NCBI GenBank assembly: GCA_025960445.1
Contig: JAICIT010000009.1
Location: forward strand, 1-16,193
From: Bradyrhizobium sp.
Lineage (GTDB): Bacteria > Pseudomonadota > Alphaproteobacteria > Rhizobiales > Xanthobacteraceae
Length of the DNA: 16,193 nt
Direction: 5' to 3'
Below, piece by piece: positions 682 through 10,750 of this stretch. Made by a program: the position numbers and the translations under genes. Position 1 is the first letter of the stretch, and every line of letters begins with the position of its first letter. The notes under the pieces were generated by a model, which ran no database searches, had not been told where the DNA came from, and was given only the letters and a program-made list of their open reading frames with translations.

Positions 682-1470
682 GTGGCGCCGGACGGGCACT
701 CACGTCTGCTCACACCGCATCATAAGTTTGAAATTGTGCAGGAGTTCGTCACCGCGTCGAAGGGCGCCAAGTCAATGAGTGACTTGCGCGACCTGATTGA
801 TGTTAGCTCGAAGGAACTCGGCTTCGATTATTATGCAATCGTCCACCACATTCGCTTCGGACACCCCTCACGCGATAAGATTCGCCTCTCAAATTACCCA
901 CTCGAGTGGCTTGCGGTACTTCGTGAGAAAGAAAGCTTCCACGATCCCGTATTGAAAGCCGCCGAACGCGCATCCAGTGGCTTTTTGTGGAGCAGGGTCG
1001 AGGATGTTCTCCCGCTGACGCAGAGTCAGCGCGATCACATGAAGCTAGCAGTGCGATTTGGTTTGGCAGAGGGATTCACAGTGCCCAATCATGTTCCGGG
1101 AGAGACCTTCGGATCATGTCATTTCGCGGTCCGTCAGCAGTCGGCACTTCCTGGTGAATGCGTGCCGGCCGCCCAGGCTCTCGGCTGCTTCGCGTTCGAA
1201 GCTGCGCGCCGGACACTACGGGAGAAGCAGGAACTTAGCGAGAATTACGTGGTCCCGGCACCACTGACTGATCGTCAACGGGACTGTGTGTTATTTGCTG
1301 CACGCGGCAAGAGTGACTCTGTAATCGCTCAGCTTCTCGACATTCGCCCTTCCACCGTCAACGAACACATTGAGGCGGCCAAGCGCCGGTACTCGGTTGC
1401 GACGCGTACCCAACTGATCGTTAGAGCACTGTTCGGAAGCGAAATCTCATTTTCGGAGGTGATTGACTAA
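682..1470 (+). CDS. LuxR-family quorum-sensing regulator (AHL-binding)
   Basis: A 262-aa protein with the two-domain layout of AHL receptors: an autoinducer-binding domain (about 15-180) and a LuxR helix-turn-helix (about 194-255, LTDRQRDCV...GKSDSVIAQLL...STVNEHI). Mapping on TraR, the ligand-pocket residues Y53, W57, D70, W85 and G113 correspond to Y72, W76, D88, W103 and G131 and are all present; TraR Y61 is replaced by Leu80. In the HTH the usual Glu of the 'REREV' motif is Gln199. The start is GTG at 682 with GGAGA six nt upstream. It presumably binds the AHL made by the LuxI at 2969-3598 and controls that gene and neighbours in the cytoplasm. Its stop codon overlaps the stop of the convergent P450 gene by 4 nt. 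Placement near luxI supports a cognate pair over a solo receptor. Confidence 0.88.
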   Translation: MAPDGHSRLLTPHHKFEIVQEFVTASKGAKSMSDLRDLIDVSSKELGFDYYAIVHHIRFGHPSRDKIRLSNYPLEWLAVLREKESFHDPVLKAAERASSGFLWSRVEDVLPLTQSQRDHMKLAVRFGLAEGFTVPNHVPGETFGSCHFAVRQQSALPGECVPAAQALGCFAFEAARRTLREKQELSENYVVPAPLTDRQRDCVLFAARGKSDSVIAQLLDIRPSTVNEHIEAAKRRYSVATRTQLIVRALFGSEISFSEVID

Positions 1471-2855
1471 GCTCTTGGGCAAAGCTCGATCGGCAAAGGA
1501 CCAACAGGCCTGCAATTCGGCCAGTGGTACCATTGCGGCGGCCGCTCACTTACTAACCGTAGCTCATGCGATTGGAGCAGGTTCCGGAGCAAAGCTCGAA
1601 CCTGCAGCGATGCAAAGTTCGCTCCCAGGCAGCCGTGCGCGCCTCCGCCAAACGGAACGAAAGCGAAGCGGTGTCGCGCGCGCACTTTGATTGGCTCGAA
1701 ACGACCAGGATCGTACCGTGCAGGCTCATCCCAAATCTGGGGCAGCAGGTGCGTCAGCATCGGATTGACCCCGACGACTGTGCCAGTCGGTATCGAGTGA
1801 CCGCCAAAAGCGGTGTCACGCAAGGCACGCCTCCAAAGGACCGGAGCAGCAGCGTTGAGGCGTAGCGCCTCCTTAACCGCCCACTCACTTTGCTCACACC
1901 GCTGTAACTCAGCAAGGTCAATGGTCGCGCTCGAAGCGATGTTTGATAAGAGCTCGTGCCGTACGCGATTTTGCCAAACCGGATCTCGAGCCAGATAGTA
2001 GAGCGTTGAAATGGTTGCCGAAGATAAAGCGTCGAAGGACGCTGCGATAGTGAAGGTCAGGTGTGCGACAATCTCTTCCTCGCTTAGACCTCCTGACATT
2101 TTCAATCGCACCAGAGCGGCTGCGAGATCGGTCCTGTCCTCGTGAGGTTCTGCATTTATAACGGTACCAAGAAGCCGGCGCACGTGGCGCTTCGCCCAAT
2201 CGGCTCTCCATTGAGCATTCCCCGGAAAGGGAAAAGGTACGATGGCAGCGGCCGAGCGCATAAGATACCGGAAAGCCAGGAGATCGGTTCGCTCTGCTTT
2301 CGACGAGTCCAAACCAAGAAACGCGGAGTAACCGTTCGTGAATGTGAGCTTCTGCGCGAATTCGTAAGTGTTGATCGTGCGACCCGCCACGATGGAGCAA
2401 AGACGCGAGATGTTCGTGCAAAACACCCCAAGATAATGCTGAAGTTGCTCCTGTTTGAATGCGGTCGCTACCAGCTTGCGGTGCCATTTGTGGTCCGCCC
2501 CGTCGCGGAGCAGAAGTCCTCCGTCGAAATGGCGCCCAAAGACGGGCTTCCAGCCCCCATAAGCCGAGAAGTTGCCTTCTCGGTCAAACAAAACGAACTC
2601 GTTAGCCTCCGGTCCAACCAGTTGAAGGTTCCAGTTTCCGCAAGCGTAGAAGCGATGAATGGGCCCATGTTCTTCGTACATTCGCCGTGCGAATGCATAC
2701 GGATCGCGGGCGGCTTCCGGTAACACCCCGACAATCGGCAAGCCTTTTTTTGCAGGTATGCTGGCGAGTTGAGCGCTGGTGACCCTAGCGAACGTCGGTA
2801 AGACTCGATTGGGCTTTGCAATTTGAAAGGCGGAGGGGGAAATGGTCGCCGTCAT
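1467..2855 (-). CDS. cytochrome P450 located between luxR and luxI
   Basis: A 462-aa haem monooxygenase, soluble by appearance. Visible landmarks: C-helix HKWHR (122-126), I-helix AASFDALSS (271-279), K-helix ExxR as EALR (329-332), YDPGRF (381-386) and the haem-ligand loop FGGGAHGCLG (402-411) with Cys409. FGGGxHxCLG is the style of CYP51/CYP120-like enzymes, not of the common camphor-type bacterial P450s. The I-helix consensus (A/G)GX(D/E)T reads ASFDA here: the acid is kept but the oxygen-activating Thr is Ala276. A longer form starting with GTG at 2900 is possible; ATG at 2855 is preferred because it has GGAA 8 nt upstream and leaves 113 bp for the divergent promoter. No ferredoxin or reductase partner is in the window. 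The substrate is unknown; the position suggests a link to AHL signalling. Confidence 0.9.
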   Translation of the reverse strand: MTATISPSAFQIAKPNRVLPTFARVTSAQLASIPAKKGLPIVGVLPEAARDPYAFARRMYEEHGPIHRFYACGNWNLQLVGPEANEFVLFDREGNFSAYGGWKPVFGRHFDGGLLLRDGADHKWHRKLVATAFKQEQLQHYLGVFCTNISRLCSIVAGRTINTYEFAQKLTFTNGYSAFLGLDSSKAERTDLLAFRYLMRSAAAIVPFPFPGNAQWRADWAKRHVRRLLGTVINAEPHEDRTDLAAALVRLKMSGGLSEEEIVAHLTFTIAASFDALSSATISTLYYLARDPVWQNRVRHELLSNIASSATIDLAELQRCEQSEWAVKEALRLNAAAPVLWRRALRDTAFGGHSIPTGTVVGVNPMLTHLLPQIWDEPARYDPGRFEPIKVRARHRFAFVPFGGGAHGCLGANFASLQVRALLRNLLQSHELRLVSERPPQWYHWPNCRPVGPLPIELCPRA

Positions 2856-2968
2856 GTCTGCTGTTCCGATGAGGAATTCGACGCTCAGCTTACATGTCAC
2901 TGCCTCAATGCCGACCCCCTGTAACTACCGGGCTTAGCCAACCGACTTATCGTGCGCATAAAAAGCCA
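2856..2968. promoter_or_regulatory. divergent P450/luxI promoter region
   Basis: 113 bp lie between the divergent starts of the P450 and luxI genes. Any AHL-dependent control of either gene should act here. I see only short dyads: TTCC-5 nt-GGAA at 2864-2876 and GGCTTAGCC at 2931-2939. Neither resembles a full lux box. Promoter elements were not resolved by eye. Confidence 0.4.
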
Positions 2969-3598
2969 ATGATCGATGTGATCCTGCCGGAAAGCCGCTT
3001 CGCCTTCGCTCAAGCCTTGCTTGAGATGCATCGCGATCGAAAGCGAATCTTCGTGGATCGGCTCGGTTGGAGCCTACCATCGCGGCAAAGCTGGCTTGAG
3101 ATCGATGAGTTTGACAGTGACTACGCCGTTTACTTGCTTGCGAGGGATTTCGACACCGGTCGGCATCAGGCTTCCGTTAGGCTCTTACCTTCGACGCAGC
3201 CCCACGTCCTCGGATCACTATTTGCACAGCTTTGCGCAGACTCCGCGCCCGTAGCGGACGACTGTTGGGAAATTTCAAGGCTCGTAGCAATACCCGCTCG
3301 AGGCAACGGCACGGCACTAGTGCGCGTCCATCGCTTACTTGCGGTCGCGCTCGTTGAGTTTGCACTGACCAATCGCATCAGGACCTATTCACTTGTTGCA
3401 GAGGCGGATCGTGTGCCGGCACTTGTCTCGGTAGGTTGGGATGTACGTCCTCTCGGACTGCCGTCTTTATACGGCGATGTGCGGCTGCAGGCGCTGCAAA
3501 TCGATATTGATGAAAGCACCTTGCCCGCGATGCGACGACGGCTTGGCATCCATCAGGCGGTACTGCGCTTCCCTGCGTCCCAGTTGCAAGCAGCCTGA
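2969..3598 (+). CDS. LuxI-family acyl-homoserine lactone synthase
   Basis: A 209-aa enzyme that would make an N-acyl-homoserine lactone from S-adenosylmethionine and an acyl donor. With the start at ATG 2969 the invariant residues fall at canonical LuxI/EsaI positions: R24, F28, W34 (RKRIFVDRLGW), D46 and D49 (EIDEFD), R71, E101 and R104 (WEISR). An upstream ATG at 2894 would add 25 residues with no homology-like content, so it is rejected; no strong ribosome site is seen for either start. The C-terminal half, which contacts the acyl chain, is more divergent (VEFALTNRIRTYSLVAEADR), and I cannot predict the chain. Its stop is 2 nt before the ATG of the winged-helix gene at 3601, so the two are almost certainly co-transcribed. 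It diverges from the P450. Confidence 0.9.
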   Translation: MIDVILPESRFAFAQALLEMHRDRKRIFVDRLGWSLPSRQSWLEIDEFDSDYAVYLLARDFDTGRHQASVRLLPSTQPHVLGSLFAQLCADSAPVADDCWEISRLVAIPARGNGTALVRVHRLLAVALVEFALTNRIRTYSLVAEADRVPALVSVGWDVRPLGLPSLYGDVRLQALQIDIDESTLPAMRRRLGIHQAVLRFPASQLQAA

Positions 3599-3600
3599 CG

Positions 3601-4101
3601 ATGGGATCAGCATTGATGTCTAACTTCCAGGGCTCGTCAGACCGCAACCGCAAACCGCCGGCAGAAGAGTCAAATTCCAAGTCAATGGCTTTGCTGATCG
3701 ACCGACTGTTGAGTCATCCCATATCGCGCGAACCGCAGGCGAGGTCCGACGCTAAACTTGTCCCCTGCGCATCTGCATTTCTCCAAGCTAGGATGACGTG
3801 GGATCGCGCGTTAAGAATAGAACTTTCAATCGATCCCGTCTGGAGCATGCTGCTCGTCATCTACGTGCGACAGGCAACCGACCCTGGCATCAAGGTAGCT
3901 TCGTTGTTGGACTTATCATGGATCGGACCGAGTACGGTTCTGGTGCGATGGGCGACAAAGCTGGTTACAGACGGAATTCTTGAGCTCGCCGACGATCGCT
4001 CCAATGATGCGGAAAAGATCGTGCGGCTGTCTTTAGACGGGCTACACAAAATTGAGAACTGGCTACGTTCCTCGACGGCCGAAGTTGCAAGGCCGTCGTA
4101 A
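3601..4101 (+). CDS. winged-helix (MarR-like) regulator, co-transcribed with luxI
   Basis: 166 aa. The N-terminal 65 residues are polar and low in complexity. From about residue 66 it follows the family pattern: WDRALRIELSIDPVWSMLL, then a winged-helix region (about 97-145) with a helix-turn-helix-like stretch (SLLDLSWIGPSTVLVRWATK) and a wing (ELADDRSNDAEKIVRLSL). It is paralogous to 1-330 and 5830-6333 but the most divergent: the F-[AG]-[DE]-PAWD core reads IDPVWS. The ATG at 3601 is 2 nt after the luxI stop; ATG 3616 (GGGA 9 nt upstream) is an alternative. The position predicts that it modulates the AHL circuit or responds to it. The effector is unknown. Confidence 0.75.
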   Translation: MGSALMSNFQGSSDRNRKPPAEESNSKSMALLIDRLLSHPISREPQARSDAKLVPCASAFLQARMTWDRALRIELSIDPVWSMLLVIYVRQATDPGIKVASLLDLSWIGPSTVLVRWATKLVTDGILELADDRSNDAEKIVRLSLDGLHKIENWLRSSTAEVARPS

Positions 4102-4605: not shown

Positions 4606-5502
4606 TCATTGAACAACTACTTCGCTCCAGCTCTGTTTTCGCATAAAATCTGCCACGAGTTCAGCCTGAACCGGTCGAAGCGCGTCGGTGGCAGCGAAGC
4701 GCTCGGGGACATGGCGCTTGAGAAGGACTGACGGGCATTGGCCTTCAAAATTGCCGAGGTTCGGGCGGTGCTGTTGATAGCCAATTAGCGCTGCAAGTTC
4801 CGGGCTGAAGTGACGAGCAATCTCTGGTGGATATGCAAGCCACTGATTTTCGAATGGCTTCAGCCAGCCGAGGCAGTAGCTTATAATCGCTCCCCGACGA
4901 ACGTTGTTGCTCGCGTTACCCCCAGCACCGTGAAGCGTCGAACCAAGGAAGAGCAACGCCGATCCCGGTTCCACCTCCGGAGCAAACTCGCCGGTCGGCG
5001 GGTTTGGATCGAGAGCTCGTCTGCCGTGACTCTTTGGCCAAACGAGGGTGCCGCCGTTCTCAAAATTGTAAGGCGTGAAAGGCCACATGACGTTGACGAG
5101 ATATTCGGTCTCCCCAATTTGTCCGCGCCACATGTTCTGATCGCGATGTGGAAGCTGCGGCGGCGCGCCAGGGTGCAGTGCCAGTGCTTGCGTCAGGTTC
5201 AGTTGGATTGTGTCGCACCAGGGCTCGAGCACCTGCTGAGCGATTCCGAGCACTAAGGGATGCTGGACTAGCTTTCTCGTCAACGCAGACCGCACGAGTA
5301 GCCGGCCGAAGCGTTTCGTGCGCCCGCCGTAAAAGGGACCTTGGCAAAAAGGCGTTTCAGCGAAATCTCGGGCCAGGTCGGCATCGAGCGCCTCGATGTC
5401 GCTCGGGGAAAGCAGCGAAGGAATGACGCACCAACCTTCGTCAAGCAAAGTTGATGCCCAATGCTTGATTCGAGCCCCGACGCGAGCTCGTGATTCAATC
5501 AT
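4606..5502 (-). CDS. phytanoyl-CoA dioxygenase (PhyH) family Fe(II)/2-oxoglutarate oxygenase
   Basis: 298 aa. The double-stranded beta-helix iron site is visible: H119-x-D121 (LPHRDQNMW), distal H191 (STLHGAGGN) and a 2-oxoglutarate-binding Arg at 202 or 203 (NVRRGAIISY). The N-terminal GWCVIPSLLSPSDIEALDADL (split about 23-43) is typical of PhyH proteins. The family hydroxylates acyl-CoAs or diverse natural-product intermediates next to a carbonyl or amide. In-frame starts exist at TTG 5589, ATG 5550, ATG 5517 and ATG 5502; the last is preferred for GAGAG 8 nt upstream and family-like N-terminal length. Transcribed alone on the minus strand and divergent from the regulator at 5830. I recall luxI-phyH proximity having been noted in sphingomonads but cannot confirm it here. 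The substrate is unknown. Confidence 0.85.
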   Translation of the reverse strand: MIESRARVGARIKHWASTLLDEGWCVIPSLLSPSDIEALDADLARDFAETPFCQGPFYGGRTKRFGRLLVRSALTRKLVQHPLVLGIAQQVLEPWCDTIQLNLTQALALHPGAPPQLPHRDQNMWRGQIGETEYLVNVMWPFTPYNFENGGTLVWPKSHGRRALDPNPPTGEFAPEVEPGSALLFLGSTLHGAGGNASNNVRRGAIISYCLGWLKPFENQWLAYPPEIARHFSPELAALIGYQQHRPNLGNFEGQCPSVLLKRHVPERFAATDALRPVQAELVADFMRKQSWSEVVVQ

Positions 5503-5829
5503 GTTATAATCTCTCATCCAATTTGGGCACGCGAAGTGGCGCCCGTGCATTGCAATCTCAGATGCTTTTGGCTGCGAGAACCCCGGCAATTACGGGGGTG
5601 AGTTCGTGCGGCCGCGCCTTGATTCCGCATTCCCGGCGACAATCAGCATATCCTGAGCTTTTTCGATTATCCTGCGTTCTCGCAGTTGGAGGGGAAGCGC
5701 TTCTTTCCGAAGCGCTTTCACCTCAAAACGAACCGTAAATGTCTCCAATTTGGGCCAGAATTCCGCATGTTACGATGCCCTTTGGTGTTAGGTGTGTCTG
5801 CCAACACAGGTAAAACTCCTGAGGAGCAT
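5503..5829. other. divergent intergenic region phyH / regulator
   Basis: 327 bp between two divergent genes. It contains a tandem palindromic motif at 5694-5719 (separate entry). The minus-strand frame of the dioxygenase stays open up to 5589, so part of this stretch could be coding if an upstream start is used. No promoter consensus is clear. Confidence 0.4.
5694..5719. promoter_or_regulatory. tandem palindromic GAAGCGCTTC motif, possible regulator site
   Basis: GAAGCGCTTC (5694-5703, a perfect 10-bp palindrome) recurs as GAAGCGCTTTC at 5709-5719. The spacing is 15 bp. It lies about 110 nt before the regulator start and between two divergent genes. Two adjacent dyads are a common layout for dimeric winged-helix regulators. 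No regulator can be assigned from sequence alone. Confidence 0.3.
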
Positions 5830-6333
5830 ATGACCAAGCACGCGCCTGACCTGGATGCAGAACGGCTCTTGCAACTCAGCAAAGATGTCAGCCGGATCTC
5901 AGCGACTCTCGCAGAGCTTTCAATTGGCCTCGACAGTCAATCTCCCTCCAGCGGACCTTGCATTGACCAGGACATTCCGGAGGTGTCAGAAGAAACGGTG
6001 CGCTGGATAATCAGCGCCCGAAATTCGCGTTTCAAATTTCTTCCGATGGATCTGTTCGCCGATCCGGCGTGGGATATTTTGCTCGAGCTCCTGCGAGCGG
6101 AGATCGCGCAGCAACGTGTCCCCGTATCGAACCTATGCCTCGCATCAAATGCGCCAGCGACAACTGCATTGCGATACATCAAAACGATGAATGGAGCCGG
6201 GATGATTGTTCGCGAGCCTGACCCATTCGACGGAAGGCGAGTGTACGTTTCGCTCAAGCCGGAAATTAGCTTGGCACTTCGACGCTACTGCATTCACCTA
6301 TTTGAAAAGCCGATAACGAAAAAAGTTGCGTAG
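5830..6333 (+). CDS. winged-helix (MarR-like) transcriptional regulator
   Basis: 167 aa, starting at ATG 5830 with GAGGAG three nt upstream. An N-terminal helix (about 10-32, ERLLQLSKDVSRISATLAEL) probably mediates dimerisation. It is followed by the family core SRFKFLPMDLFADPAWDIL (about 66-84) and a winged helix: recognition region LCLASNAPATTALRYIKTM (about 102-120) and wing REPDPFDGRRVYVSL (128-142), where DPxDxRRxxVxL is a MarR hallmark. It is the best-preserved of the three paralogues in the window. The frame open upstream to 5686 is Cys/Arg-rich, unlike the family, and ignored. It overlaps the PAS gene by 8 nt, so the two are likely co-translated. The regulated genes may be the PAS protein, the divergent dioxygenase, or both. 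Confidence 0.8.
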   Translation: MTKHAPDLDAERLLQLSKDVSRISATLAELSIGLDSQSPSSGPCIDQDIPEVSEETVRWIISARNSRFKFLPMDLFADPAWDILLELLRAEIAQQRVPVSNLCLASNAPATTALRYIKTMNGAGMIVREPDPFDGRRVYVSLKPEISLALRRYCIHLFEKPITKKVA

Positions 6334-7244: not shown

Positions 7245-9221
7245 ATGCTGTTACGCTTTCGAGAACTGCTCCATCTACACATCGACGCGGATCTCTCGAC
7301 CACGTCAGCCAGCGCAGTAGTTGAGGAGCGCTACTGGTCGCTCCGTCGACACGTCCCGATCGTCTACCTGCTAGGCCTCGTGAACCTATCCGCAATGGAG
7401 ATCGCGACCAGTGGGAGGGTAACTTTCGGACCCAATCTGCCCACGTTCATAGCTGCGTGCGGCCTTCTGCGATTGGTTCACTGGTTCGGCGAGGGACGGA
7501 CAGTGCCGCATGCGATCATGATTAAACGGATGCGCCAGACTGTGTGGTTCGCTGCGATCGTGTGCGCTGCCGTGTGCGCGCGTTGTCTCTATCTCCTGCA
7601 CGTTGGAGATGCCGCCTCGCACATGGCGGTCATGCTGTTTGGCGGCCTCACTGCAATCGGGGTTGCCTACGGCCTTACGGCACTCCCTTCCGCTGGCCGA
7701 ATCCCGCTTGTGCTGATCATTGTGCCAATCTCGATCGCAGCACTTCTGTCGCGAGAGCCGCACTTCGCGGGAGCGGCGTTCGGGTTGGTCGTCGTCGCAG
7801 CCCTGACAATGCGACTCCTCAATAGTCACAGTCGTCACTTCACTGATGTAATCCTTTCGCGCTCGCGCATTGCGTATGAGCAAGAGAAAGTGGAGCACGC
7901 GCACCAGGAGGCGGTGGTTGCGGCAACCACAGATTTCTTAACTGGACTGCCAAATCGTCGGGCTTTCGTGGCAGCGCTCGAAAGTGCCGCTGGGGGCCGC
8001 GCGTTTGCCGTTGCGATACTCGATCTCGACCGGTTTAAATCTGTTAATGATACCTTCGGCCATGCTGCCGGCGACCAATTGCTCGACCAGGTCGCTGCGC
8101 GCCTTCTCCATGTAATCGGAAATCGTGGAATGGTCGCTCGGCTCGGCGGCGATGAATTCGGGATCTTGATCCACGACGTTCCCCGCACCAGGAGCGCTCA
8201 TCTTCTCGGCAGGGAAATCCTGGATGGCGTGAACGGCCCAGTTCATCTGCATGGACGGCAGTTAGTGATTTCAGCGTGTTGCGGGCTTGCAGTTGCTCGG
8301 TCAGGGGAAGCGAAATCGCCGTCGCGACTCATGGCTGATGCGGATCTCGCGCTTTATCAAGCGAAGGAGAATGCAAGCGAGAAGATGGCGGTTTTTGAAC
8401 TCAGGATGGAGGCGCCGCGGCGGCGACGGACCGAAATTGAAGGAGCCCTGCTCGCTCCCGGAGTCCATGATAATTTCGCCATCGTGTTCCAGCCGATCTT
8501 TGAATTGAAGACGGGCCGGGTTCTCGCGCACGAGGCGCTTGCTCGATGGACGGACCCGGTGCTCGGGTCGATATCTCCGGCCGAATTCGTGCCAATCGCC
8601 GAACACCTGAACTTGATCGATGATCTGAACTCACGGTTGATGGCTCTTGCGTTCGAGAGAGCACGCCGCTGGCGAAAGGACGTCAAGCTCGCGTTCAACC
8701 TCAGCGCTCTTCAGCTCTGTTCGAGAAACTCCGCACGCGCCGTGCTTCGCGCGCTGCGCGACAGCGGCTTTGGTCCGGAGCGACTTCAAGTCGAAGTCAC
8801 TGAAACCGCGCTTCTTGCCGACTTTGAACGTGCGCGCGAAAACCTGACTGAACTCAGGAAGGCAGGAGCAACAATCGTCCTTGATGATTTCGGCGCCGGC
8901 TATGCCTCGATTGGCTATCTTCGCGAGCTTCACTTTGACCAGATCAAGCTTGATGGCGGTCTGGTAACCGCAGCACAGCACAGTTTAGATGGCAAACGCC
9001 TACTAAGGGCAGTTGTGGGTCTCTGCGAGGCACTCGGTGTAGTGACCGTGGCCGAGCACGTTGAGAGCGACGAACTCCTGAGGCTGGTTCGGGATCTCGG
9101 CTGCGACGCGGGTCAGGGATTTTGGCTCATGCGACCGGTGCCGGCAGAACAACTAGACGAATTGTCGACGATGCCATCAGTGGTGATCAGGCCCAAAGAA
9201 ATGCGCCGGCGCGCCGCCTGA
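7245..9221 (+). CDS. membrane-anchored GGDEF-EAL cyclic-di-GMP turnover protein
   Basis: 658 aa from ATG 7245 (AGG 7 nt upstream); the frame opens at GTG 7221 without a ribosome site. About six hydrophobic segments occupy residues 38-190, followed by a short coiled-coil-like linker (YEQEKVEHAHQEAVVAAT). GGDEF domain: TDFLTGLPNRRAF (about 229-241), DLDRFKSVND, and an intact RLGGDEFGIL (GGDEF about 301-305). The RxxD inhibitory site five residues before is absent (GNRG instead). EAL domain: HEALARW (EAL about 430-432), FNLSALQL, VEVTETALL, LDDFGAGYAS, IKLDGG, AEHVES, GQGFWLMRP; all metal- and substrate-binding residues I know for active EAL domains are present. It may therefore both make and degrade c-di-GMP. 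It lies 158 nt before the polysaccharide synthase gene, suggesting local control. Confidence 0.93.
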   Translation: MLLRFRELLHLHIDADLSTTSASAVVEERYWSLRRHVPIVYLLGLVNLSAMEIATSGRVTFGPNLPTFIAACGLLRLVHWFGEGRTVPHAIMIKRMRQTVWFAAIVCAAVCARCLYLLHVGDAASHMAVMLFGGLTAIGVAYGLTALPSAGRIPLVLIIVPISIAALLSREPHFAGAAFGLVVVAALTMRLLNSHSRHFTDVILSRSRIAYEQEKVEHAHQEAVVAATTDFLTGLPNRRAFVAALESAAGGRAFAVAILDLDRFKSVNDTFGHAAGDQLLDQVAARLLHVIGNRGMVARLGGDEFGILIHDVPRTRSAHLLGREILDGVNGPVHLHGRQLVISACCGLAVARSGEAKSPSRLMADADLALYQAKENASEKMAVFELRMEAPRRRRTEIEGALLAPGVHDNFAIVFQPIFELKTGRVLAHEALARWTDPVLGSISPAEFVPIAEHLNLIDDLNSRLMALAFERARRWRKDVKLAFNLSALQLCSRNSARAVLRALRDSGFGPERLQVEVTETALLADFERARENLTELRKAGATIVLDDFGAGYASIGYLRELHFDQIKLDGGLVTAAQHSLDGKRLLRAVVGLCEALGVVTVAEHVESDELLRLVRDLGCDAGQGFWLMRPVPAEQLDELSTMPSVVIRPKEMRRRAA

Positions 9222-9379: not shown

Positions 9380-10750
9380 ATGAACGCCCCAACGCGACTG
9401 GAGCGTGTTCAAGCCACTGACCGATACCGACAATTCTATCTGTCGATCCGCGTCAAGTTTGTGATTTCCCTGGCAGCAGGATTCGTGTGGATGGCGTTCA
9501 GCGTCTATCTTGCACGGACGTGGATGGCTGATCTTGCCAACGTCACCGAGCCGCTCTTCGCAATGTGGGCGCTGACATTCATTGCCTTCGTCCCAGGCTT
9601 CATGAATGCCTTTCTCGCCGTGTCCCTGTTGCTCGACCGGCGGCCGCAAAGGCGCACCCCATTCATTTATCCAGGCGTCAGCATTCTCATCGCTGCCTAT
9701 AATGAGGAGGCGGGAATCAGCGCCACCCTGGAGAGTATTGCGCGCCTGTCTTATCCCGGCCAGGTCGAGGCACTTGTTCTCAACGACGGATCGACAGATC
9801 GCACGGTCGCCGAAGTGAAAGCGAGCAAGGCCGAGCTGCGCCTCCCTCCGAATGTCACGATTCGTCTCGTCGACCATGAGCAAAACCGGGGAAAAGCTGC
9901 GGTCCTGAACAGCGGTCTTAGAGAGGCAACACACGGTCTAATCTGCACCATCGACGGAGACAGTCGCCTGCGCGCGAACAGCTTGGGTGAAATCGTGGAG
10001 CGCTATCTGTCCGACCCACCGAACACCATGGCCGTGGCTGGCGCTGTCCTCGTCCGAAATTCACGCGCGAGCCTGATTACCGCAGCACAGGAGTGGGATT
10101 ATTTCCACGGCATTTCGGCCGTCAAGCGCATGCAGAGCATGTATCATGGCACGCTCGTCGCGCAGGGGGCCTTCTCACTCTACAGCAAGCGTGCCCTGGA
10201 GACAGTAGGTGGCTGGCCGGATTCGGTCGGCGAGGACATCGTGATGACTTGGGCCATGCTCGAGCGCGGGTACCGCATTGGCTATGCCGAAGATGCGATC
10301 GTTTTTACCGACGCTCCCACCACGTTCAGACAATTTTACCACCAGCGAAAGAGGTGGTCTCGTGGTTTGATTGAAGCCCTGCAGCGTCACAAAGCGCTGC
10401 TAATCAAACCGCGCCTTTCAACGCTGTTCGTGTGGTGGAACTGTCTCTTCCTGCCGCTCGATCTCACGTTCACGTTCATTTTCATTCCCGGACTGATTGC
10501 AGCGATGCTCGGCTACTACTGGATCGCGGGCCCGCAGACGCTCTTGTTGCTTCCGCTCGCGCTCATCTGGAACGCCGTCATCTTCAACATTCAGCGCAAG
10601 ATGTTTCAGTCGAAAGGTCTTCACGTCCGCCGAAACGTGGTCGGGCTCCTCTTCTATGTGCTCGCTTACGCCATCGTCATGCAGCCCATTTGCCTATGGG
10701 GATACGTCTCCGAGCTCGCAGGCCAACGGAAGAATTGGGGAACCAAATGA
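9380..10750 (+). CDS. family 2 processive glycosyltransferase, PgaC/IcaA-like
   Basis: 456 aa inner-membrane polysaccharide synthase. Two N-terminal membrane segments (about 27-45, 60-85) precede the GT2 domain: VSILIAAYNEE (100-110), LNDGSTDRT (134-142), TIDGDSRL with the metal-binding D192-x-D194, GED (284-286) and QRKRWSRG (322-329, the QxxRW motif of processive synthases). Three further membrane segments follow (about 350-380, 385-403, 418-445). This layout matches synthases of poly-beta-1,6-N-acetylglucosamine and related polymers; the exact sugar is not determined by sequence. ATG 9380 has GGAAG 10 nt upstream. Its stop overlaps the next gene's start (ATGA). No PilZ domain is seen, so any c-di-GMP activation would need the transmembrane face or a partner, as in PgaCD; no PgaD was recognised. 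Confidence 0.88.
   Translation: MNAPTRLERVQATDRYRQFYLSIRVKFVISLAAGFVWMAFSVYLARTWMADLANVTEPLFAMWALTFIAFVPGFMNAFLAVSLLLDRRPQRRTPFIYPGVSILIAAYNEEAGISATLESIARLSYPGQVEALVLNDGSTDRTVAEVKASKAELRLPPNVTIRLVDHEQNRGKAAVLNSGLREATHGLICTIDGDSRLRANSLGEIVERYLSDPPNTMAVAGAVLVRNSRASLITAAQEWDYFHGISAVKRMQSMYHGTLVAQGAFSLYSKRALETVGGWPDSVGEDIVMTWAMLERGYRIGYAEDAIVFTDAPTTFRQFYHQRKRWSRGLIEALQRHKALLIKPRLSTLFVWWNCLFLPLDLTFTFIFIPGLIAAMLGYYWIAGPQTLLLLPLALIWNAVIFNIQRKMFQSKGLHVRRNVVGLLFYVLAYAIVMQPICLWGYVSELAGQRKNWGTK

Follow-up and report, generated by a model that had tools for sequence, protein, structure and literature searches.

The window analysed here, a stretch of 16,193 nucleotides assigned to Bradyrhizobium sp. (GCA_025960445.1, contig JAICIT010000009.1), contains a quorum-sensing (QS) locus in which a cytochrome P450 gene lies in reverse orientation between a luxR-type and a luxI-type gene, the latter predicted to encode an acyl-homoserine lactone (AHL) synthase. 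Here we show that this order is conserved among sphingomonads, that the P450 and luxI share a conserved lux-box-like palindrome, and that the P450 may act on the signal itself. Open reading frames (ORFs) and Pfam matches confirm the order luxR(+), P450(-), luxI(+) that had been read from the sequence alone, as well as the 4-nt overlap of the luxR and P450 stop codons (1467-1470 are common to both) and the 113-bp gap across which the P450 and luxI diverge (Table 1). PF00067 is the sole Pfam family found in the P450 at E ≤ 0.001, and the protein is not an RsaL or RsaM repressor. Its start at ATG 2855 is likely, since 461 and 462 aa are the commonest lengths among the relatives listed. The start of luxR is uncertain, homology to its relatives beginning at about residues 13-19; the LuxR relatives listed are 64-88% identical to the window protein.

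Table 1. Features of the QS locus and its neighbourhood, in coordinates of the window
Feature	Position	Strand	Remarks
luxR-type AHL receptor/regulator	682..1470	+	262 aa as called; PF03472 Autoind_bind 88.3 bits, PF00196 GerE 32.9 bits
Cytochrome P450	1467..2855	-	462 aa from ATG 2855; PF00067 185.1 bits; ORF extends to GTG 2900
P450/luxI divergent promoter region	2856..2968	.	113 bp
lux-box-like palindrome CCCTGTAACTACCGGG	2917..2932	.	1 mismatch to CCCGGTANNTACCGGG; 36 nt before luxI ATG, 61 nt from P450 ATG
luxI-type AHL synthase (predicted)	2969..3598	+	209 aa, likely ATG 2969; PF00765 56.5 bits
Small ORF	3601..4101	+	166 aa, 2 nt past luxI stop; weak similarity to relatives of the winged-helix ORF at 5686
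PhyH-type Fe(II)/2-oxoglutarate dioxygenase	4606..5550	-	PF05721 79.1 bits; start uncertain, ORF extends to 5589
Degenerate second box CCCGGCAATTACGGGG	5582..5597	.	2 mismatches; between PhyH and winged-helix gene; weak alone
MarR-like winged-helix regulator	5686..6333	+	Conserved neighbourhood member; protein may start further in
Glycosyltransferase	9380-10747		Used as origin marker

The order is not unique to this contig, and the sequence-only reading thus survives the refuting condition that it had set itself, an order found in this strain alone. When other genomes were searched, luxR> <P450 luxI> was found in 6/6 other complete sphingomonad loci (L032 of Sphingomonas solaris R4DWN; L033 and L036 of sphingomonad metagenome-assembled genomes, MAGs; L034 of S. 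daechungensis; L078 of genome G460; L079 of genome G677), and the orientation agrees as far as it is visible in L035, which stops inside the P450. Five loci came from a contig scan of genomes, those of G460 and G677 were added by genus and family searches, and the window proteins were mapped on all of them. The seven genome loci found whose P450 has 42% or more identity to that of the window all adjoin luxI. In the window and in the 6/6 complete loci, the P450 is the sole interposed gene, convergent with luxR and divergent from luxI. The luxR/P450 junction varies, with overlaps of 26 nt (L079) and 4 nt (L034) and gaps of 9 nt (L033), 36 nt (L036), 38 nt (L078) and 222 nt (L032). The sequence-only reading had supposed that P450 transcription would run antisense towards luxR; because the overlap is not conserved, this idea finds no support, and we reject antisense control of luxR as a conserved feature.

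For comparison, 11 luxI loci (L082-L092) were picked, by their higher LuxI scores, from 55 LuxI-bearing genomes; 11/11 gave no P450 match at E ≤ 1e-5, and three of them (L090-L092) have the order luxR-luxI-PhyH. In L032, L033, L036, L078 and L079, luxI has a PhyH gene behind it in the same orientation; in the window PhyH is inverted and stands behind the 166-aa ORF, not directly beside luxI, and no PhyH match was found beside luxI in L034 and L035. The constant companion of the luxR/luxI pair is thus the P450 and not PhyH. In the complete genome of S. daechungensis the P450 (L034, 8001-9403) is frame-shifted near 9071-9113, with luxR and luxI open; this locus may be decaying, or the shift may be an assembly error.

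The gap between the P450 and luxI contains the palindrome CCCGGTANNTACCGGG in 8/8 loci, exact in 7/7 others and differing at a single position in the window copy, and the distance from this box to the luxI start is 36-57 nt across the loci. In the six relative genomes that were searched, exact copies are confined to the QS locus, with one copy each and two in S. daechungensis. The second copy in that species (L034, 6427-6442) lies past luxI and a small ORF and has no recognisable adjoining target gene; a search for a phyH remnant near it gave no significant match. Sites with up to two mismatches number 64 in seven genomes, against 73 for a reversed-pattern control. On these two counts, the confinement of exact boxes and the level of the control, we reject a large regulon acting through the box, although more degenerate sites may exist. 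Scans found no sigma-70 promoters (-35/-10) or terminators within 2700-3050, and the window as a whole gave no Rfam match above the gathering cut-offs.

In a family sample of 397 genomes, the exact box occurs in 11 and the reversed control in 6. The 11 comprise five P450 loci, four sites directly before a luxI without a P450 match (L144-L147; the contig of L147 ends about 1 kb past the box) and two unrelated sites (L142, L143). Because the exact box also precedes luxI in L144-L147, the palindrome looks like a lux box, a predicted operator that is independent of the P450, and it may be a more general mark of lux promoters in sphingomonads. The P450, in turn, looks like a gene inserted against this lux box and standing back-to-back with it. 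The sequence-only reading had proposed joint regulation of the locus. Its antisense part has fallen away; the predicted joint control of the P450 and luxI by LuxR is well supported at the sequence level, by the conserved palindrome shared in their divergent promoter, and since the P450 stands back-to-back with the palindrome before luxI, such LuxR-dependent control would be bidirectional.

The genes also appear to have been inherited together. The QS-type P450s form one clade with support 100/100 (19 rows against 19 other P450s; 12 of the 19 QS rows come from metagenomes and were assigned by similarity), and the P450-linked LuxIs form one clade with support 100/99 (22 rows against 11; 14 of the 22 linked rows are labelled only by a shared longest-contig size). 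Tree rows were located by tblastn, and long-branch warnings apply to L079 in the P450 tree and to the LuxI tree, where long branches join each other. For the three closest loci, omega is 0.10-0.14 for the P450, 0.11-0.21 for luxI, 0.07-0.12 for luxR and 0.15-0.18 for phyH; the P450 is under purifying selection.

The window P450 contains the ExxR motif (EALR) and the haem loop FxxGxxxCxG (FGGGAHGCLG), rows L066 and L075 of the motif alignment being disregarded. A threonine after an acidic residue in the I helix is conserved, and not universal, among P450s. At this position the window has alanine, as do 101/120 listed relatives (the window's own entry counted), and 19/120 have threonine; threonine is also present in L036, L079 and those sister P450s whose I helix was aligned. 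Loss of the threonine was considered as a defining trait of the clade and rejected as not absolute, given the 19/120 that keep it. The AlphaFold2 model of the protein has a predicted local distance difference test score (pLDDT) of 90.5 and a predicted template-modelling score (pTM) of 0.90. Its nearest solved folds, at 18-26% identity, include CYP120A1 with retinoic acid, CYP184A1 with oleic acid and CYP102A1 (P450 BM3), which share the overall fold and have lipid-type ligands. P450s are placed in one family above about 40% identity, and at 18-26% to the solved members listed, the window protein would not be a member of CYP102, CYP184 or CYP120. BM3 carries a fused reductase, for which the window P450 ORF has no counterpart. 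To our knowledge, none of CYP102A1, CYP184A1 and CYP120A1 has a link to QS.

Ten LuxI positions, which beyond Arg24, Phe28 and Trp34 we take to be the catalytic set, are invariant in 120/120 LuxI matches, the window included. The best solved relative of LuxI by sequence is 6wn0, named a 4-coumaroyl-homoserine lactone synthase. Arg24, Phe28 and Trp34 are named as conserved LuxI residues in the available text of PMC3704786. With the haem and ExxR motifs and the LuxI catalytic residues present, neither the P450 nor LuxI looks broken. For LuxR, we used what we take to be the TraR pocket numbering (Trp57, Tyr61, Asp70, Trp85, Gly113), mapped by motif and RhlR alignment. The window LuxR keeps the equivalents of W57, D70, W85 and G113 and has leucine at Tyr61. 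The equivalent of Asp70, a position strongly conserved elsewhere, is glutamate in 112/119 LuxR relatives, the window and seven relatives keeping aspartate, and that of Trp57 is phenylalanine in five loci. Judged from these residues, the P450-linked LuxRs would mostly have altered pockets, the window LuxR less so.

Reference genomes seldom carry the module. An order-wide sample of 396 genomes gave a close P450 (E ≤ 1e-95) in S. daechungensis alone, on which the sample was centred, and LuxI at E ≤ 1e-30 in 55/396. The family sample yielded 27 genomes with a P450 at E ≤ 1e-85, four at 54-58% identity (G061, G062, G063, G460), one at 42% (G677) and 22 at 34-39%; in both P450 scans at most four candidates were scored per genome. 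Four of the 22 weaker P450s were inspected (L080, L081, L093, L094), as was the 35% P450 of the MAG bin itself (L095), and in the stretches fetched none of them had a luxR/luxI match. Metagenomes hold many relatives, the best 120 of 587 P450 matches being 62-80% identical, the window's own entry aside. Among the listed matches, 17/117 LuxIs and 23/119 LuxRs have the same longest-contig size as one of these 120 P450 matches; at shifted sizes, the chance level had means of 0.96 (LuxI) and 1.09 (LuxR) and maxima of 4. This size sharing points indirectly to linkage in metagenomes. Spread on plasmids was rejected: the top identity among the best 40 of 635 plasmid records is 32.2%, and all 635 lie below 60%.

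The reading that we favour, to which we give a probability of about 0.5, is that of a compact QS module of a sphingomonad lineage in which a co-induced P450 oxidises the signal. LuxI would make an AHL, and LuxR with its ligand would bind the palindrome midway between the P450 and luxI and drive both genes outward; signal synthase and oxidase would thereby be induced together, as the anatomy and its conservation suggest. The LuxI product would then be oxidised by the P450, with the acyl chain as the likeliest site, and the oxidised AHL would be the ligand preferred by the altered LuxR pocket. Gene order, co-inheritance, the conserved palindrome and the intact motifs of the three window proteins are the features seen directly. 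Action on the LuxI product is plausible, and we rank it first among the possible roles of the P450, because, apart from LuxI, no member of the conserved set was recognised as making a scaffold, the neighbouring ORFs having been Pfam-scanned in part, and because the P450 and luxI share a palindrome whose exact form occurs nowhere outside the locus in those relatives that were searched. Tailoring of the signal takes precedence over its attenuation because of the changes in the LuxR pocket. More tentatively, the signal may be made in two steps, with the P450-oxidised AHL as the true LuxR ligand where Asp70/Trp57 are mostly changed; the P450 would in that case be a dedicated AHL-maturation enzyme. 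Two observations weigh against the tailoring module: one-mismatch boxes occur outside the QS locus, one each in G677 and G062, and there is a match to CYP90B1.

Attenuation by this oxidation, which we rank as a close second and consider less likely, would have the P450 occupy the seat of RsaL and oxidise the AHL to a less active form, as negative feedback in an enzymatic incoherent feed-forward loop. It owes its rank to a geometry that resembles the rsaL seat and to the fact that most known interposed genes lower the response, and the palindrome shared by the P450 and luxI fits it too. In the L1 loci of Pseudomonas, luxR-X-luxI (RXI) arrangements such as lasR-rsaL-lasI and ppuR-rsaL-ppuI, rsaL diverges from luxI, as the P450 does here. 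These loci likewise have one interposed gene that is convergent with luxR and sometimes overlaps it, as described in the available text of PMC3386692 and PMC3658600, and by analogy the same geometry might serve a brake here. The single interposed genes of the 2012 topology survey are given, in the available text, as 11 RsaL, 29 RsaM, mupX, integrases/transposases and hypotheticals, without the word "P450"; 41/48 are RsaL, RsaM or mupX, and MupX degrades the signal (PMC3386692). The mupR-mupX-mupI locus of Pseudomonas fluorescens NCIMB 10586 likewise places an enzyme gene at X, and its product is said to act on the signal (PMC3386692, PMC3658600); MupX is an amidase-hydrolase that degrades AHL, whereas the candidate for the same seat here is a haem oxidase. 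In the present locus X is a cytochrome P450 and not a DNA-binding repressor, and the lineage is alphaproteobacterial, where the available text of the survey reports no RLI or RMI pattern (PMC3386692). Against attenuation, the topology is an analogy only, and the pocket changes in most P450-linked LuxRs suggest another ligand, for which a pure brake has no need.

Somewhat less probable again, and third in rank, is a quorum-controlled product, with the P450, and PhyH where present, oxidising a metabolite other than an AHL and the lux box marking an output gene. Biosynthetic gene clusters linked to luxR are a familiar theme, and PhyH resembles fungal natural-product dioxygenases; however, the lack of a recognised scaffold-maker besides LuxI in the part-scanned conserved set, the inconstancy of PhyH and the restriction of exact boxes to the QS locus in the six relatives searched speak against it. 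A chance insertion of the P450 with no functional link to QS is strongly disfavoured: bacterial P450s are numerous, gene order shifts and the broken S. daechungensis copy indicates that the gene can be lost, but the order is kept over 42-80% protein identity, the P450s form one clade under purifying selection and the palindrome is conserved.

Downstream of luxI, the small ORF gave no match in a Pfam scan. The winged-helix protein of the window falls under the Pfam cut-off, and its L033 copy matches PF13463 over the cut-off, at 34 bits. The degenerate box at 5582-5597 is possibly a second divergent promoter; such sites are at background level, and 10/200 shuffles gave at least two matches in the window.

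The window comprises an entire contig from a MAG that is 72% complete; its GC content is 0.57 against about 0.60 for the bin. Its tetranucleotide correlation to 14 other contigs of the bin is 0.79-0.895, these among themselves averaging 0.94 with a minimum of 0.89, and its correlation to four sphingomonad stretches is 0.61-0.855, so that composition does not point to sphingomonads either. The glycosyltransferase has no match at E ≤ 1e-20 in 14/14 same-genus genomes; among 13 sphingomonad genomes there is a close copy in two (77% in S. daechungensis, 60% in G345), a distant one at 33-34% in two and none in nine, the S. daechungensis copy lying about 21 kb from its luxI. That genome also has a second, broken glycosyltransferase of the window type, in pieces at G060:C2:4227-5576. 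Based on the glycosyltransferase distribution and the QS genes, the contig is most likely sphingomonad DNA misbinned with another genus, the alternative being transfer of the whole block.

We found no description of a P450 between luxR and luxI in the open-licence papers searched. Sphingomonad luxR/luxI loci with phyH beside luxI have the same three genes together in the available text of PMC3704786 and PMC4288048, and the word "P450" is absent from the main texts of both; the P450 is the addition here, between luxR and the palindrome. AHL oxidation is cited for CYP102A1, and for the marine Rhodobacteraceae strain MOLA 401, which has poly-hydroxylated AHLs, the authors propose that a P450 hydroxylates the AHL chains (PMC5479921). 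In the available text of that paper the P450 homolog is noted in the genome only, with no link to a locus, whereas the P450 of the window is situated between luxR and luxI. Genes interposed in luxR/luxI loci have been described, as far as the available text goes, as mostly negative regulators (PMC3386692, PMC3658600). What is new here is a conserved palindrome shared by an interposed P450 and luxI, in a module that is compact and present in named sphingomonad species. If the reading of signal tailoring is true, a conserved P450 that has its lux box in common with luxI would represent a novel means of shaping the signal. Oxidised AHLs would thereby gain a defined genetic origin; to date, in the available text of PMC5479921, a P450 has been proposed for them with no locus attached.

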